From: Kaistia granuli DSM 23481
GTDB lineage: Bacteria; Pseudomonadota; Alphaproteobacteria; Rhizobiales; Kaistiaceae
Length of the DNA: 64,000 nt
Assembly (NCBI RefSeq): GCF_000380505.1
Contig: NZ_AQYH01000007.1
Location: 186,001 to 250,000 of the forward strand
Direction: 5' to 3'
Of the stretch, positions 16,904 through 23,456 are shown one piece after another. Below the pieces are notes generated by a model that made no database searches, was not told the origin of the DNA, and worked only from the letters and a program-made list of their open reading frames with translations. Every line of letters begins with the position of its first letter. Within the stretch, counting starts at the first letter, position 1. The translations under genes were made by a program, and so were the position numbers.

Positions 16904-17464
16904 TTACGCTGGCAGCAGGCGCGATACCCAGGCGGACACCGCGTCACCGCTGCTCATGTCGGCTTGGATCAACCCGTCGATCATGAAGGTCGGCGACACA
17001 TGGATGCCGTTCTGGCGGGCATATTTGCAGTGCCACTTGATCTCGCGGTCGAGATCCGGAATCGCAAAGGCCTCCTTCAGCGCCACGCCGCTATGGCCTT
17101 CCAGGCGCTCGATGATCTGGTTCGGCGTCACGTCCATGTTCGGGCCGCCGGCATGGTGGGTGAACTCGAACGCCTCGCGATGGGCGGCGACGGCGGCCAT
17201 GACCTTCTTCGCGGTTTCCTTGCCACCTTCCAGCGTCGAGGCCGCGAGGATGCAGCGGACGATGACGCCGGAGTACAGGTGCCAGGGCTGCGACTGCAGC
17301 CGGATCTTGATCGTGATCCTGTCCTCTCCGGCCTGGGCCAGAAGCTCGTCGAGCTTGTTGAAGACGCGGACGGAATAGGGGCAGGTCGGCTCGAGGAAGA
17401 CTTCAAAGATGCGCGATCCGGTTCCCCAGACGAGGGGATCGGCGCGCCAGGCAGTCGCTGTCAT
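16904..17464 (-). CDS. DsbA-like thioredoxin-fold protein with monothiol CPYS motif
   Basis: A 186-residue cytoplasmic protein of the DsbA/thioredoxin-like superfamily. The active-site stretch is EPTCPYSVRV (about residues 25-34), so the second active cysteine is Ser; the cis-proline loop is HVSPTFMIDG near residue 158. There is no signal peptide. Other cysteines occur at VRCILAAS and WHCKYAR. Convergent with the kinase (29 bases apart). It may act as a glutathione-linked or monothiol reductase or isomerase; the role is not clear from context. Confidence 0.85.
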   Translation of the reverse strand: MTATAWRADPLVWGTGSRIFEVFLEPTCPYSVRVFNKLDELLAQAGEDRITIKIRLQSQPWHLYSGVIVRCILAASTLEGGKETAKKVMAAVAAHREAFEFTHHAGGPNMDVTPNQIIERLEGHSGVALKEAFAIPDLDREIKWHCKYARQNGIHVSPTFMIDGLIQADMSSGDAVSAWVSRLLPA

Positions 17465-17767: not shown

Positions 17768-19954
17768 ATGGCGCCAGCACTGATGCTCAAGATCCTCATT
17801 GTCGACGACAGCTCGACCAATCAGCGCATCTATTCGAAACTGGCCAGGCAACTGGAGACCGATCTCGACATCCGCGCGTTCGGCAATCCGCGCAAGGCGC
17901 TTGAATGGCTGGCCGAGAACACGGCCGATCTGATCATCACCGATTACAAGATGCCGACGATGACCGGCGCGGATCTGACCGCCGCCGTGCGGGCCAACGC
18001 CCGCAACTGGGACGTCCCGATCATCGTCATCACCGCCTACAGCGACCAGCAATTCAGGGTCACGGCGCTCGAGGCGGGGGCGACGGATTTCCTGCTCAGC
18101 CCGGTCGATCATGTCGAATTTCTCGCCCGGGCCAAGAACCTCCTGAAGCTCCGGACCCAGCAGCTTCTCATTGCCAAGCGGGCGGACCTGCTGGAGATGA
18201 GCCTGAACGCCAAGGAGCAACTGCTGCGGGAAAGCCGCGAGGCGCTGGCCCAGGTCATTGATACCGTTCCCGCCATGATCAACGCGACGGATCGAGACGG
18301 GCGCTGCGTCTTCGTCAATGCCCACCAGGCCGCCTTCTTCGGCAAGGTGCCGGGGGACCTCGTCGGCCAGCCGATCGAGGCGCTGCTCGGCGAGGAGCGG
18401 GCGCATATCAGTCGCCGGCTCGACCAGCTCGTGCTGAAGACCGGCCGCTCGATTCCGGCCCGCCAGGAGGATGTGTGGGCGCCGAGCGGCGAACACCGGA
18501 TCTATCTGACGAGCAAGGCGCCCCTCTATGACGGCATGGGCGAGATCGCCAGTGTCCTCTCGACTTCGATCGACATCACCGAACAGCGCCATGCCGAGCG
18601 GCGCCTGCTGCATATCGTCAATCACGATTCGCTCACCGGCCTGCCGAACCGGCTGATGCTGCGCGACCATCTGCGGCGCGAGCTGGCGCGCGGCCGGCGC
18701 GGCGACCAGAATTTCGCGCTGCATTTCATCGACCTCGACCGCTTCAAGGCGGTGAACGACGCGCACGGCCATCACCGGGGGGACGAACTGCTGCAACGCG
18801 TCGCCGAAGCGCTGTCGGAGCTGGTCGACGAAAATCATACCGTTGCTCGCCTGGGCGGCGATGAATTCGCCATCCTGCAGCCCGATATTGACGGGCCCGA
18901 TGACGCCGGCCGTCTGGCGCAGGCGATCCTCGACCTGCTCAACAGCGAGGAAGACGGCCCGCTCGCCCTCAATATCGGCGCTAGCATCGGCGTCACGCTC
19001 GCCCCGCTGGACGGCACCGACCCGGACGAGCTGCTCAAGAATTCCGACCAGGCGATGTATCTGGCCAAGTCGCTGGGCGGCGGCACCTGGCGCTTCTTCG
19101 CGGCCGACATGCGCCCGCGTGCCAGCCAGACCGCGCATCTCGAGAGCGAGCTGAAGGGTGCGCTGTCGCGGCGGGAATTCGTGCTCCACTACCAGCCGCA
19201 GATCGATCTCCGTAGCAAGAAGGTGGTCGGTGTCGAGGCGCTGTTGCGTTGGCAGCACCCGCAGCGCGGCCTGCTGGCGCCCGGCTCGTTCCTGGGCCTG
19301 GCGGAGGAGACGGGGCTGATCCTGCCCATCAACGAATGGGTGCTGAACGAGGCCTGCCGGCAGGGCGCCGCCTGGCAGACTGCCGGCCTCGGCGATCTGC
19401 GCGTCGCCGTCAACATGTCGCCCATCCAGTTCAAGCGTCAGGGCGTGGAAGGCCTGGTCAAGGATGCGCTGCGCGAAAGCGGCATGCGCCCGACCATGCT
19501 GGAGCTGGAGCTGACGGAGGGCATTCTGCTCGGTCATGACGAGCAGGTCGTCAAGCAGATGCATGTCCTGCGCTCGCTCGGCGTGACGCTGTCGGTCGAC
19601 GATTTCGGCACCGGCTATTCGTCGCTGAGCTATCTCCGCAGCTTTCCGCTGAACCGTCTGAAGATCGACCGCTCCTTCGTTCAGGATCTGGGCAGCGATC
19701 CCAGCGCGCTGGCGATCGTGCGGACCATCATCGATCTCGGCCACATCCTGCATCTCCATGTTCTCGCCGAGGGCGTCGAGACGGAGCCGCAGCTCTCGCT
19801 TCTGCGCCTGGAGGGATGTGACGAGGTGCAGGGCTACCATTTCAGCCGGCCGCTTCCCGCCGACGCTTTCGCCAACTGGTTGATGCAGTATGGCAGCCTG
19901 AGCTCCGGGTCCTCGCAGGGCTCGATGGAGAACGAGCATGCGGGCACCGGATAG
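17768..19954 (+). CDS. c-di-GMP regulator REC-PAS-GGDEF-EAL, RpfG-like receiver
   Basis: A 728-residue two-component output protein. Receiver: residues 5-130, with acidic pocket Asp13-Asp14 and phospho-acceptor Asp59, but the usual Lys is Ser111 (FLLSPVD). The end of the receiver, ATDFL-PVDHVEF-ARAKNLLKLR, resembles RpfG. PAS: about 160-275. GGDEF: 363-367 intact, with no RxxD inhibitory site before it. EAL: Glu490, then NMSP, ELTEG, DDFGTGYSS and QGYHFSRPLP, so the phosphodiesterase site looks intact. It may make or break c-di-GMP. GTG 17762 and ATG 17783 are alternative starts. Its end overlaps the RpfC-like kinase by 17 bases, making the kinase its likely phosphodonor. Confidence 0.93.
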   Translation: MAPALMLKILIVDDSSTNQRIYSKLARQLETDLDIRAFGNPRKALEWLAENTADLIITDYKMPTMTGADLTAAVRANARNWDVPIIVITAYSDQQFRVTALEAGATDFLLSPVDHVEFLARAKNLLKLRTQQLLIAKRADLLEMSLNAKEQLLRESREALAQVIDTVPAMINATDRDGRCVFVNAHQAAFFGKVPGDLVGQPIEALLGEERAHISRRLDQLVLKTGRSIPARQEDVWAPSGEHRIYLTSKAPLYDGMGEIASVLSTSIDITEQRHAERRLLHIVNHDSLTGLPNRLMLRDHLRRELARGRRGDQNFALHFIDLDRFKAVNDAHGHHRGDELLQRVAEALSELVDENHTVARLGGDEFAILQPDIDGPDDAGRLAQAILDLLNSEEDGPLALNIGASIGVTLAPLDGTDPDELLKNSDQAMYLAKSLGGGTWRFFAADMRPRASQTAHLESELKGALSRREFVLHYQPQIDLRSKKVVGVEALLRWQHPQRGLLAPGSFLGLAEETGLILPINEWVLNEACRQGAAWQTAGLGDLRVAVNMSPIQFKRQGVEGLVKDALRESGMRPTMLELELTEGILLGHDEQVVKQMHVLRSLGVTLSVDDFGTGYSSLSYLRSFPLNRLKIDRSFVQDLGSDPSALAIVRTIIDLGHILHLHVLAEGVETEPQLSLLRLEGCDEVQGYHFSRPLPADAFANWLMQYGSLSSGSSQGSMENEHAGTG

Positions 19955-22442
19955 CGTGCTCCAGACGCTGGCTACACCATTCCGCTGGATGGCTTCACGA
20001 CTGCGGGGTCGCCCCGATAGCGAACATGAGATGAGCTACAACCGGCTCGTCTTCGCCATCATCATCGTCATCGTGCTGCTGATCTATCGCAGCAGCAGCG
20101 ACATGGGCGACGCCCTCGACGTCATGGCGCTGTACATACCGCTGGCGCTCGGGGTTCTCGGCCATATCCTGTTTCGCCCTGGCGTATCGCGCGGCCGACG
20201 TTTTTTCGCGCTGTTGATGGATTGCGGCTTTCTCTCCTGGCAGCTGCATCTCGGCGGCGAGGTCGCCGCGCTGTTTTTTCCGATCTATCTCTGGGTCATC
20301 TTCGGCAACGGCTTCCGCTTCGGACTGACCTGGCTCGCCATCGCGATTCCTGTTGCGACCCTATGTTTCGCCGTCGTCGTCCTGACAACACCATTCTGGT
20401 TCGAGCGCTGGCATCTCTCGGTCGGGTTGCTGGCCGGGCTTGTCATCCTGCCGGCCTATGCCGGAACGCTGATCCGCAAGCTCTCGCTAGCCACCCAGGC
20501 GGCGGAGGAGGCCAGCCAGGCAAAGAGCCTCTTCCTCGCCAGCGTCAGCCACGAGCTGCGCACGCCGCTTACCGCCATCGTCGGCATGACGGGATTGCTG
20601 CGAGCCAGCCCGCTCGTCGCCGAGCAGCGCGACATGGTCGAGACGGTCGATGTCGCTACCCGCTCGCTGCAATCGCTGATCAACAGCCTGCTCGATCTCT
20701 CGCGGATCGAGGCCGGGCGCATGCCGGTATCGAACGAGGGGATCGATCTGATCGCGCTGCTCGTCGACGCGCGCCGCCTGGTCGAGAGCCAGGTGCGCGA
20801 GCGCGGCCTCAGCTTCGATATCCACGTCACGCCGCGCACGCCGTTGCGCCTGCATGGCAGCCGCCAGCACCTGCACGAGATCCTGGTCAATCTCGTCGGC
20901 AACGCCGTGAAGTTCACCCGCGACGGCGGCGTGACCATCGCGGTGGACGGCGAGCCGCAGGAGGATGGCACGCTCCGGCTGGTGATGGAGATCACCGACA
21001 CCGGCATCGGCATCGCGCCGAAGGACCAGGAGCGGATCTTCGAGGACTTCACCCAGGCCAACCCCAGCATTATGAACCGCTTTGGCGGCACGGGCCTCGG
21101 CCTGGCGATCGCGCGGCGCCTGGTAGAGCTGCTTGGCGGCTCGATTTCGGTCGAGAGCGCGCTGGGCGAGGGGAGTACGTTTCGTTTCGATATCGTCGTC
21201 TCGACGGTGGCGGATGAAGGCCTGTCGGCGGACGAGCCCTGGCGCGAGCGCGGCGTCGTCCTGGTCTGCCGGGATGTCGCGCCGGTGGCGGAGCTGCTGA
21301 GCACCCTTTCCGCGCTTGGCGTCACGCCGATCCTGGCCGATCCGCGCCAGGGGCCGGTGCGCATGTTCCCGCCGCAGGCCGTCAATTCCGTTCGGCTGCT
21401 CTACGAACCGGACAGCCATAACCTGCCCATCCCGCCAGCTGGCGCAGCCGGATCGACCCCGAAGGTGGTGCTGGTCCAACCTCAGGCGACGGAGACCCTG
21501 CCGGGCCTGGCGACCCGCCAGCGTTGTGCGAGCCTGCTTTCGGTGGACCCGACGGAGACGGAACTGCGCCGGGCGCTGGTCGTCGCCTGCCGGCTGGCCG
21601 CGCCGGCCGCCTCGCTCGCCCAGCCCGCGGCGCCGCGTCCGATCCAGCCGAGCCGCCCCCGCCGGGTGCTGCTGGCGGACGACAATCGCATCAACCAGCG
21701 GGTGTTCTCCCGCATTCTGGAGGCGGCTGGCCATTCCGTGCTGCTGGCGGAATCGGGAGACCAGGCGCTCGATCTTCTGGAGGAGAAGGCGGACCAGATC
21801 GACATCGTGCTGATGGACTTCAACATGCCCGATACGGACGGGCTGGAGGCGACCAAGCTCTATCGCATGATGGCAACCGGCGACCGGCGGCTTCCCATCG
21901 TCGGCCTGACCGCCGATGCGACCGCCATGACCGACAATCGCTGGCGCGATGCCGGCATGGATGATTGCCTGATCAAGCCGGTCGAGCCTGCCAGCCTGTT
22001 GGCGGCGATCGACAGGATCGCCCGCGAGGAGCCCGGCAGGCCGGCCCGCAACGAGCCGCGGCTGACCCTGGTTCGCAACGATGTCCTGCCCAGCCTGGAT
22101 GAGAATGCGGTCGAGAAGCTGCAGAGGCTCGGCAATGCGGAATTCGTGCGCGAGCTGATGGAGGACTATCTGGTCGACGCCGAGGTGATGCTCGACCGGT
22201 TGGTGCAGAGCGCCTGCCAGGGCGATCTGGAGGCTTTCCGCAGCGATGACCACGCGCTGCAGAGCAGCTCGGCCAATATGGGTGCGCTGGCGCTCGGCAG
22301 TATCTGCGCGCCCTGGCGGGGCCTGCGTGGCGATGAGCTGCAGGCCCGTGCCGCGGAGTTCACGCGGCAAGCCAGGGCGGAGCTGAGGCGGACGCAAAAA
22401 GCCATGCGCGCCTATTCGGCGCGCGAGGCGGGCCTGGGCTGA
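19938..22442 (+). CDS. rpfC: RpfC-like hybrid sensor histidine kinase (DSF sensor candidate)
   Basis: An 834-residue membrane kinase with the order of Xanthomonas RpfC. Residues 35-180 hold five or six membrane helices including FFPIYLWVIFGNGFRFG, a stretch I recognise from RpfC sensors. Then come the H-box SHELRTP (His205), N-box GNAVKF (321-326), G-boxes DTGIGI and GTGLGLA, a degenerate receiver-like part (435-560), a true receiver (575-695; Asp627, Lys680) and a C-terminal HPt domain with His772 in DHALQSSSAN. It would sense DSF and pass phosphate to the co-transcribed REC-PAS-GGDEF-EAL protein. The gene symbol reflects family and context, not proof. Confidence 0.88.
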   Translation: MRAPDSVLQTLATPFRWMASRLRGRPDSEHEMSYNRLVFAIIIVIVLLIYRSSSDMGDALDVMALYIPLALGVLGHILFRPGVSRGRRFFALLMDCGFLSWQLHLGGEVAALFFPIYLWVIFGNGFRFGLTWLAIAIPVATLCFAVVVLTTPFWFERWHLSVGLLAGLVILPAYAGTLIRKLSLATQAAEEASQAKSLFLASVSHELRTPLTAIVGMTGLLRASPLVAEQRDMVETVDVATRSLQSLINSLLDLSRIEAGRMPVSNEGIDLIALLVDARRLVESQVRERGLSFDIHVTPRTPLRLHGSRQHLHEILVNLVGNAVKFTRDGGVTIAVDGEPQEDGTLRLVMEITDTGIGIAPKDQERIFEDFTQANPSIMNRFGGTGLGLAIARRLVELLGGSISVESALGEGSTFRFDIVVSTVADEGLSADEPWRERGVVLVCRDVAPVAELLSTLSALGVTPILADPRQGPVRMFPPQAVNSVRLLYEPDSHNLPIPPAGAAGSTPKVVLVQPQATETLPGLATRQRCASLLSVDPTETELRRALVVACRLAAPAASLAQPAAPRPIQPSRPRRVLLADDNRINQRVFSRILEAAGHSVLLAESGDQALDLLEEKADQIDIVLMDFNMPDTDGLEATKLYRMMATGDRRLPIVGLTADATAMTDNRWRDAGMDDCLIKPVEPASLLAAIDRIAREEPGRPARNEPRLTLVRNDVLPSLDENAVEKLQRLGNAEFVRELMEDYLVDAEVMLDRLVQSACQGDLEAFRSDDHALQSSSANMGALALGSICAPWRGLRGDELQARAAEFTRQARAELRRTQKAMRAYSAREAGLG

Positions 22443-22451
22443 CGGATGGCT

Positions 22452-22479
22452 GGCGATGCGCCCGCCGGGGCGCATCGCC
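22452..22479. terminator. Hairpin between rpfC-like and rpfF-like genes
   Basis: A 12-bp perfect stem, GGCGATGCGCCC / GGGCGCATCGCC, with a 4-base loop, placed between two convergent genes. Probably terminates both; it has no long T run. Confidence 0.7.
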
Positions 22480-22487
22480 AATCCACC

Positions 22488-23456
22488 TCATTCGGCAGCC
22501 ACGAGAACGGGTATCTCCGCCTGCAGCGACGCGAGGCGGCGGTTCTGGGCCGAGCAGAGCCGGTCCATCTTGCGCAGGTCGGCTTCCGTCAGGTTCAGCG
22601 CCGCTTCGGCCCAGATGTCGACGACGTCGATGAGCTCCTCGAGCGTCACCGGGTTGACGCGCCGGCGAGCCTTGTAGAGGGCGTGGTGGGCGTTGTGCTT
22701 GCGGTTGTGGCGGGCGATGTAGTCGAGTACGGCCGCCTGTCCCTGTCCGTCCTCGGCCAGGACATCCACGACACCCATGTCGTGCAACTCCTCGGCGGTA
22801 TGGACGCGGCCCGACAGGATCAGCGCTTCTGCCTTGTCGCGGGACATGCGCCGCGACAGGAAGCTGTAGGCGCCCATGCCGGGGAACATGTTGAACAGGA
22901 TTTCTGGCAGGCCCATCTTGGCGCTGCGCTCCGCCACGATCAGATCGAAGGACAGCGCGTGCTCGAACCCGCCACCGAGCGCATCGCCCTGCACCAGGGC
23001 CATGGTGACGACCGGCGCGTCGAAGGCCACGGCGTTGCGGTGAATGGCCTCGACCGCGACATGGCCATAGTGGCGCATGGCGTTCAGATCCCGGCTGCGG
23101 ATGCGCTGCGCGAAATGCCCGAGATCGCCGCCGAGATTGTAGATGCCCGGCACGCCGGAAGCCATCACGAACCAGGAGAAGGGCGCGGCGGCCGGGCTGG
23201 GCAGGGTGGAGAAGGTCTGGGTGATCGCCGTCTGCATCCGGCTGATGTCGTGCATCAGTTCATGGGTGTAGGAGGGCTTGCCCACCGGCTCCATGTAGCA
23301 CCAGCAGGTCGAGTTGACCGTATCGATATCGATATGAAGGTTGTCATAGCCGATATCGCGGATCGCCCGGGTGGCCTCGGCCATGGCCTGACTGCCGGAG
23401 CCGGGGCCCATGCTGCTGAGAGCAACGGGGTCGTTGTTCATGCGAAGGGATGTCAT
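22488..23456 (-). CDS. rpfF: DSF synthase, RpfF-like crotonase
   Basis: A 322-residue enoyl-CoA hydratase/thioesterase of the RpfF branch. Both catalytic glutamates of Xanthomonas RpfF (Glu141 and Glu161) have counterparts at the same 20-residue spacing: Glu165 in GGGFEHALSF and Glu185 in GLPEILFNMFPGMGAY. NLGGDLGHF (108-115) and the oxyanion region also fit. RpfF makes cis-2-unsaturated fatty acids (DSF) from acyl-ACP. The start at ATG 23456 has GGAGA nearby. It is convergent with the rpfC-like gene, so the whole signal, sensor and output set is present. The N-terminus is about 25 residues longer than in Xanthomonas. Confidence 0.88.
   Translation of the reverse strand: MTSLRMNNDPVALSSMGPGSGSQAMAEATRAIRDIGYDNLHIDIDTVNSTCWCYMEPVGKPSYTHELMHDISRMQTAITQTFSTLPSPAAAPFSWFVMASGVPGIYNLGGDLGHFAQRIRSRDLNAMRHYGHVAVEAIHRNAVAFDAPVVTMALVQGDALGGGFEHALSFDLIVAERSAKMGLPEILFNMFPGMGAYSFLSRRMSRDKAEALILSGRVHTAEELHDMGVVDVLAEDGQGQAAVLDYIARHNRKHNAHHALYKARRRVNPVTLEELIDVVDIWAEAALNLTEADLRKMDRLCSAQNRRLASLQAEIPVLVAAE

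Follow-up and report, generated by a model that had tools for sequence, protein, structure and literature searches.

What does a diffusible signal factor (DSF) system control when the HD-GYP output that defines RpfG is missing? The question is raised by three adjacent genes of Kaistia granuli DSM 23481, whose genome assembly comprises 4.77 Mb in 20 contigs. The genes lie in a stretch of 64,000 nucleotides (contig NZ_AQYH01000007.1, positions 186,001 to 250,000), which we refer to as the window. They encode an RpfF-type crotonase, an RpfC-type hybrid histidine kinase and a cyclic di-GMP (c-di-GMP) enzyme with a receiver (REC) domain. We consider it likely that they form a module for DSF-type cell-cell signalling, with another output in the place of that of RpfG. 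A preliminary description of the window had proposed a complete DSF system of signal maker, sensor and output in Rhizobiales. The crotonase tree bears out the core of that reading, whereas "complete" went further than the genes themselves, and an HD-GYP output is absent.

A probable DSF-type locus with an exchanged output

The three genes were found at the places first described, and the assignment to Rhizobiales was correct. The gene for the putative DSF-family signal synthase (322 residues; minus strand, 22488..23456) converges with that for the hybrid kinase (834 residues; plus strand, 19938..22442). In the rpfG position, on the same strand as rpfC and directly upstream, lies a REC-PAS_4-GGDEF-EAL response regulator gene (728 residues; plus strand, 17768..19954), which overlaps the kinase gene by 17 base pairs (bp) and for which an alternative GTG start is possible 6 bp upstream. 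The overlap, the REC domain and a c-di-GMP enzyme had been recognized from the outset; the PAS_4 domain had gone unmentioned. The stop codons of rpfC and rpfF are separated by 45 bp (22443..22487, assigned to no strand), and the median gap is 35 bp across the 119 loci in which rpfF and rpfC are convergent neighbours. The gene order, which had been thought possibly new for Rhizobiales, is that of Xanthomonas, where rpfG-rpfC is convergent with rpfF (PMC4504480). The difference from Xanthomonas lies in the output that the rpfG-position gene carries.

The preliminary description had proposed phylogeny as a check on the crotonase. In the tree, the window crotonase stands apart from ordinary enoyl-CoA hydratases and clusters with characterised DSF synthases (support 100); 10 of the 12 loci chosen as sources of ordinary hydratases yielded usable sequence. 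Fold comparison gave the same answer, with the window protein siding with solved DSF synthases. The protein also passed the NF006452 profile with 384 bits (cut-off 177). The predicted catalytic residues Glu165 (codon 22962..22964, minus strand) and Glu185 (codon 22902..22904, minus strand) are indeed spaced 20 apart, within the motifs GGGFEHA (from residue 161) and LPEILF (from residue 183). The start codon is uncertain because the first ~36 residues are unconserved. In-frame stops were flagged inside some RpfF matches, and in all four checked they were the natural gene end.

We then asked where the receiver of the third gene belongs. This domain (17792..18130, plus strand; presumed phospho-acceptor D59) was compared across 193 annotated rpfF loci: 7 from plasmids, 55 from the order, 23 from the class, 27 from the phylum, 80 from named genomes, and the window. 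Gene calls in relatives came from our own heuristic, and locus classes were assigned by BLAST to the window domains, with motifs added for HD-GYP. Genes were counted as near when no more than four genes upstream of rpfF or five downstream of it. The named-genome loci are the best 80 of 576 confirmed stretches and so lean toward relatives of the window. The phylum loci are 27 picked for variety out of 63 positive genomes, and the plasmid loci are 7 of 40 matches listed, where 678 records matched.

Receiver and sensor searches covered RpfG-bearing genomes for 5 of the 8 HD-GYP-type loci. In all five, the best match to the third-gene receiver was the rpfG of the rpf locus (79-97 bits; next 50-58). 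Within the K. granuli genome, the best other receiver reached 55 bits (31 matches, itself included). Median receiver scores were 149 for the GGDEF-EAL class (n = 91, window included), 143 for the kinase class (n = 20), 132 for other types (n = 8), 90 for HD-GYP (n = 8) and 37 for RpfC's own receivers (n = 133).

The receiver is followed by a PAS_4 domain (18260..18589, plus strand), which is common to the REC-PAS-kinase type and was not found in the HD-GYP type: it is present in 90/90 GGDEF-EAL, 19/20 kinase, 6/8 other and 0/8 HD-GYP proteins. The GGDEF domain (18620..19078, plus strand) carries GGDEF at residues 363-367, and the EAL domain (19148..19852, plus strand) carries EAL at residues 490-492 with the other catalytic motifs present. 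Counted by pattern, these motifs were read in 85/91 and 88/91 proteins of the type, respectively. PF13487, the only HD-GYP probe used, had no match in the K. granuli genome and was positive in 4 of 14 control genomes. Because rpfG is the best match of the receiver, PAS_4 is distributed as described, PF13487 is missing and the GGDEF and EAL motifs are kept, the third gene looks, from its sequence, to share its receiver with RpfG and to have exchanged the output.

The kinase has the layout of RpfC

The RpfC-like kinase of the preliminary description holds for HisKA (20520..20717; presumed phospho-acceptor H205), HATPase_c (20862..21194) and REC (21666..22010; presumed phospho-acceptor D627), all on the plus strand and detected with Pfam, the phospho-acceptor roles being assigned by analogy. 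A histidine phosphotransfer (HPt) domain follows at 22152..22385 (plus strand), below the Pfam cut-off, with H772 as the presumed histidine. Preceded by a membrane sensor, this series fits the RpfC layout. The sensor comprises residues 1-185 (19938..20492, plus strand). A hydropathy scan placed five segments ahead of the kinase domains; five further RpfC-type proteins gave 2, 4, 4, 5 and 3. Since so crude a scan varies among these proteins, the count of five is taken chiefly from the published topology of RpfC. The model of residues 1-190 is helical, with a predicted local distance difference test score (pLDDT) of 93.9, and none of its 78 PDB matches at E up to 10 reached E ≤0.001.

The sensor region has a single match in the K. 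granuli genome, and in the five RpfG-type genomes searched it matched nothing but the rpf locus. In G1023, it was matched twice within one 924-codon open frame, so this sensor looks duplicated. In Xanthomonas RpfC, residues R15, D17, S18, E19 and Q22 are reported to be essential for DSF detection (PMC5391125). The corresponding juxtamembrane motif of the window kinase is R25-P-D27-S28-E29-H-E-M32 (20010..20033, plus strand), which keeps four of the five residues (R, D, S and E).

By analogy with Xanthomonas, Cronobacter and Burkholderia, from which the chemical steps of our model are drawn (PMC4504480, PMC5391125, PMC6361424), the RpfC-type kinase would sense, at the membrane, a fatty-acid signal made by RpfF. 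H205 would then be phosphorylated, and the phosphate would pass to D627, to H772 and on to D59 of the REC-PAS-GGDEF-EAL protein. Phosphorylation of D59 may alter the activity of this protein as a c-di-GMP cyclase, as a phosphodiesterase or as both. In Xanthomonas, RpfC also holds RpfF by way of its receiver domain, and the window kinase may do the same.

The locus is widespread in Alphaproteobacteria

The preliminary description had treated the locus as a single case in Rhizobiales; the cluster in fact occurs in many Alphaproteobacteria. In the order, 54 of 397 genomes matched NF006452 at E ≤1e-40; the figures were 24 of 385 for the class and 63 of 398 for the phylum (the samples overlap). Closer to the window, 10 of 28 family genomes passed the curated cut-off, all of them among the 14 of the same genus. 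Window-type loci span Hyphomicrobiales, Acetobacteraceae and Sphingomonadales, and named hosts include Kaistia, Ancylobacter, Acidocella, Roseomonas, Sphingomonas, Rhizobium, Aureimonas, Stappia, Pseudovibrio, Microvirga (some with a divergent layout) and Gluconacetobacter.

Removal of 7 duplicates left 186 distinct RpfF loci, 128 of which have RpfC nearby. RpfC is accompanied by REC-PAS-GGDEF-EAL in 86 loci, REC-(PAS)-kinase in 19, REC-HD-GYP in 8 and another REC gene in 7; no third gene was seen in 8. A further 31 of the 186, RpfR types included, have an EAL gene without a receiver and no RpfC, and one locus is otherwise classed. Where rpfC is present, it is convergent with rpfF in 120 of the 128 loci, divergent in 7 and on the same strand in 1, as judged by position; L110, counted as divergent, also carries a second RpfC-type gene in convergent orientation. 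All 86 window-type third genes share the strand of rpfC and lie upstream of it, 82 of them directly adjoining it. Among the other Kaistia loci retrieved, rpfC is convergent with rpfF in nine of nine; the third gene is whole in eight, and the contig ends inside that of the ninth.

Several loci depart from these types. Methylobacterium, Sphingomonas and relatives have a different RpfF partner, an EAL gene without a receiver (L031 8853-11183, L032 8853-11183, L035 8838-10796 and others). Five alpha-type examples scanned showed 4-5 hydrophobic segments at the N-terminus, the L031 protein reads PAS_7-GGDEF-EAL, and the membrane part of these proteins did not resemble the RpfC sensor. Roseomonas aerilata and Crenalkalicoccus roseus (L168 11250-13722 and L165 11413-14227) have REC-PAS alone followed by a separate HWE-type histidine kinase gene, a further output form. 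In Roseomonas populi (L188 5385-7223), the gene for the receiver protein lies beyond rpfF; the protein reads REC-PAS-GAF-PAS, and no enzyme domain was recognised in it. In Inquilinus limosus (L157 11776-13768), two additional short genes, similar to the RpfC sensor and partially to the kinase, lie between rpfC and the REC-PAS-GGDEF-EAL gene. On a Methylibium petroleiphilum plasmid (L036 7800-8750), the RpfF-type crotonase gene sits between genes for an iron-containing redox enzyme and a ferritin, and no RpfC or EAL gene is present within the fetched stretch.

Output type and sensor position 22 on the kinase tree

A kinase tree of 95 rows, made by a quick method, contains a group of 62 rows (support 99) with 56 of GGDEF-EAL type, 5 of other type and 1 of kinase type. 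Seven HD-GYP rows and seven rows without a third gene form another group (support 96). The kinase type is scattered over the remaining rows, among them one GGDEF-EAL row (L112). Three changes of output are needed on this tree. We give an even chance to the broader proposal that RpfF and RpfC form a sensing platform whose response regulator can be exchanged, in which one receiver lineage leads to HD-GYP in gamma- and beta-type loci or, via a shared PAS_4, to GGDEF-EAL or a histidine kinase in Alphaproteobacteria. If true, one fatty-acid input would drive c-di-GMP breakdown, dual-enzyme c-di-GMP turnover or a second phosphorelay, according to lineage, and these loci would offer a natural series for studying how a sensor kinase comes to be wired to different outputs.

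The window RpfF is nearest to that of Ancylobacter (84%), then to those of Acidocella and Roseomonas, ahead of most Hyphomicrobiales. On the kinase tree, Ancylobacter is again nearest, with Acidocella in the same small group. These nearest relatives, together with the absence of RpfF at the curated cut-off from all 14 family genomes of other genera, suggest that the locus was acquired by horizontal transfer.

We also considered whether the sensor differs between output types. Among 134 RpfC-type proteins before deduplication, which were gathered by similarity to the window sensor and so are not a blind sample, the Xanthomonas residues are kept as R in 102, D in 111, S in 70 and E in 132. The position of Q22 holds M in 79, Q in 36, I in 12, L in 6 and a gap in 1. 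At this position, the 91 GGDEF-EAL-class kinases have Met (71), Ile (12), Leu (6), Gln (1) or a gap (1), whereas Gln is found in 8/8 HD-GYP-type and 19/20 kinase-type loci. L112 is the GGDEF-EAL locus with Gln; L094 is the kinase-type locus with Met, and its kinase gene is on the strand opposite rpfC.

Met, Ile or Leu at this position could mirror a signal other than classical DSF, such as an acyl product of different chain length or another free fatty acid, made and sensed by an otherwise RpfFC-type module. RpfF reportedly cleaves a wide variety of acyl-ACP (acyl carrier protein) substrates (PMC6361424), which is consistent with such a product. We regard this alternative as the strongest and still rather unlikely: RpfF retains its fold and both catalytic Glu, only one position-22 event is needed on the kinase tree, and an independent-pairs test (0 same, 0 opposite, 2 not different) did not support it. 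Because the tree needs a single event, the switch is a lineage mark rather than independent proof of a changed ligand. Position 22 was accordingly rejected as independent evidence for a switch of ligand or output.

The roles of RpfF and the third gene

Is the product of RpfF what matters? The protein could instead act mainly as a regulator that binds receiver domains, its product being secondary, as in the partner swapping proposed for Xylella. The title of structure 3m6m describes RpfF complexed with the RpfC receiver, and catalytically inactive Xylella RpfF still supports signalling (PMC4504480). Each catalytic Glu is nevertheless kept in 191/193 RpfF-type proteins, window included, so catalysis is apparently selected, and we judge a mainly regulatory RpfF improbable here.

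Equally doubtful is an account in which the output enzyme is itself a second sensor, its PAS domain binding the fatty acid as in a receptor of RpfR type. The PAS-GGDEF-EAL order is that of RpfR, and hhalign pairs the two PAS domains with a probability of 91. However, a receiver occupies the N-terminus, where RpfR has its RpfF-interaction domain, and the 13 PDB sequences that the window PAS matches at E up to 10 do not include RpfR. The pocket of RpfR is formed by S169, N172, Y183, R187 and N202 (PMC6361424); of these residues at most the Ser is kept, as judged by eye on a weak profile alignment. The third gene was therefore rejected as a member of RpfR, given the replaced interaction domain and the apparent loss of the pocket.

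It is very improbable that the crotonase serves ordinary beta-oxidation and neighbours, by chance, a two-component system unrelated to it: the protein belongs to the crotonase superfamily (PF00378), but six other PF00378 matches exist in the genome, conserved linkage speaks against this reading, and the tree and fold reject an ordinary enoyl-CoA hydratase.

Several observations weigh against a DSF-type module with an exchanged output. The window crotonase scores 212.7 bits against the NCBIfam RpfF equivalog NF053515, below its cut-off of 550. The HPt domain of the kinase reaches 21.0 bits, below the Pfam cut-off of 24.6, although H772 is present in HPt context, and the Gln that is essential in Xanthomonas is replaced by Met. 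By Pfam, the third gene lacks the HD-GYP output that defines RpfG; either GGDEF or EAL may dominate, and c-di-GMP may rise or fall. RpfF is missing from 4 of the 14 genomes of the genus. Finally, a full RpfC and an EAL gene are both missing from the neighbourhood of rpfF in 26 of the 186 distinct loci. Eight of these end ≤2.2 kb downstream of rpfF and the other 18 do not; the 26 include truncated RpfC-like genes in L093, L174 and L203 and other genes with receiver similarity in L066, L135 and L167.

Comparison with known DSF systems

The RpfF-RpfC-RpfG system of Xanthomonas campestris resembles the window locus in its RpfF-type synthase, its RpfC-type hybrid kinase with membrane sensor and HPt, its REC gene directly upstream of rpfC and its convergent rpfF, and rpfG is what the window receiver matches best in RpfG-type genomes. 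The differences are PAS-GGDEF-EAL in place of HD-GYP and the sensor residue discussed above. Burkholderia and Cronobacter RpfF-RpfR loci likewise pair an RpfF-type synthase with convergent genes that include a PAS-GGDEF-EAL protein. In contrast to RpfR, the Kaistia enzyme has a receiver and no RpfF-interaction domain, and Kaistia has a separate RpfC-type kinase. Outside xanthomonads, rpfF-rpfC-rpfG clusters are described from Leptospirillum, Thiobacillus, Methylobacillus and Methylophaga (PMC4504480, PMC8357829). These also unite RpfF, RpfC and a REC gene, but the latter is RpfG (HD-GYP for Leptospirillum).

A 2026 review gives two DSF routes, RpfC/RpfG and RpfR (PMC13220807). We found no earlier description of the window-type variant in the open PMC literature; an account in subscription journals is possible. 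If our interpretation is correct, there is a third DSF route in a large alphaproteobacterial group, and a fourth in others, reached by changing what sits behind one receiver, and fatty-acid quorum sensing extends to Hyphomicrobiales, Acetobacteraceae and Sphingomonadales.

A possible link to Methylobacterium biofilm

Culture supernatant of Kaistia sp. 32K promotes biofilm formation by Methylobacterium sp. ME121, and coculture with Kaistia adipata raises biofilm with both ME121 and M. radiotolerans (PMC7563137). The authors do not identify the factor and infer acyl-homoserine lactones. K. adipata carries the three-gene cluster (L143), the supernatant result coming from strain 32K, and M. radiotolerans JCM 2831 has a plasmid-borne RpfF-type gene beside an EAL gene (L032). 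As a bolder corollary of the platform proposal, the Kaistia metabolite is a candidate DSF-family fatty acid; if our interpretation holds, this biofilm phenotype becomes directly testable. The same study also contains results that speak against a DSF-family factor: the supernatant improved ME121 growth, strain 32K left M. radiotolerans biofilm unraised, no increase occurred with E. coli or P. aeruginosa, and a motility effect had earlier been traced to a polysaccharide (PMC7563137). P. aeruginosa responds to DSF (PMC4504480).

Other features of the locus

The opposite-strand neighbour at 16904-17464 encodes a thioredoxin-fold protein (PF13462, 24.7 bits; cut-off 23.2). Genes of comparable length stand at this position in some Kaistia relatives. 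A terminator-like hairpin on the crotonase strand (22424-22406), a weak sign of a terminator, was the one found, against a mean of 0.1 in shuffled sequences.

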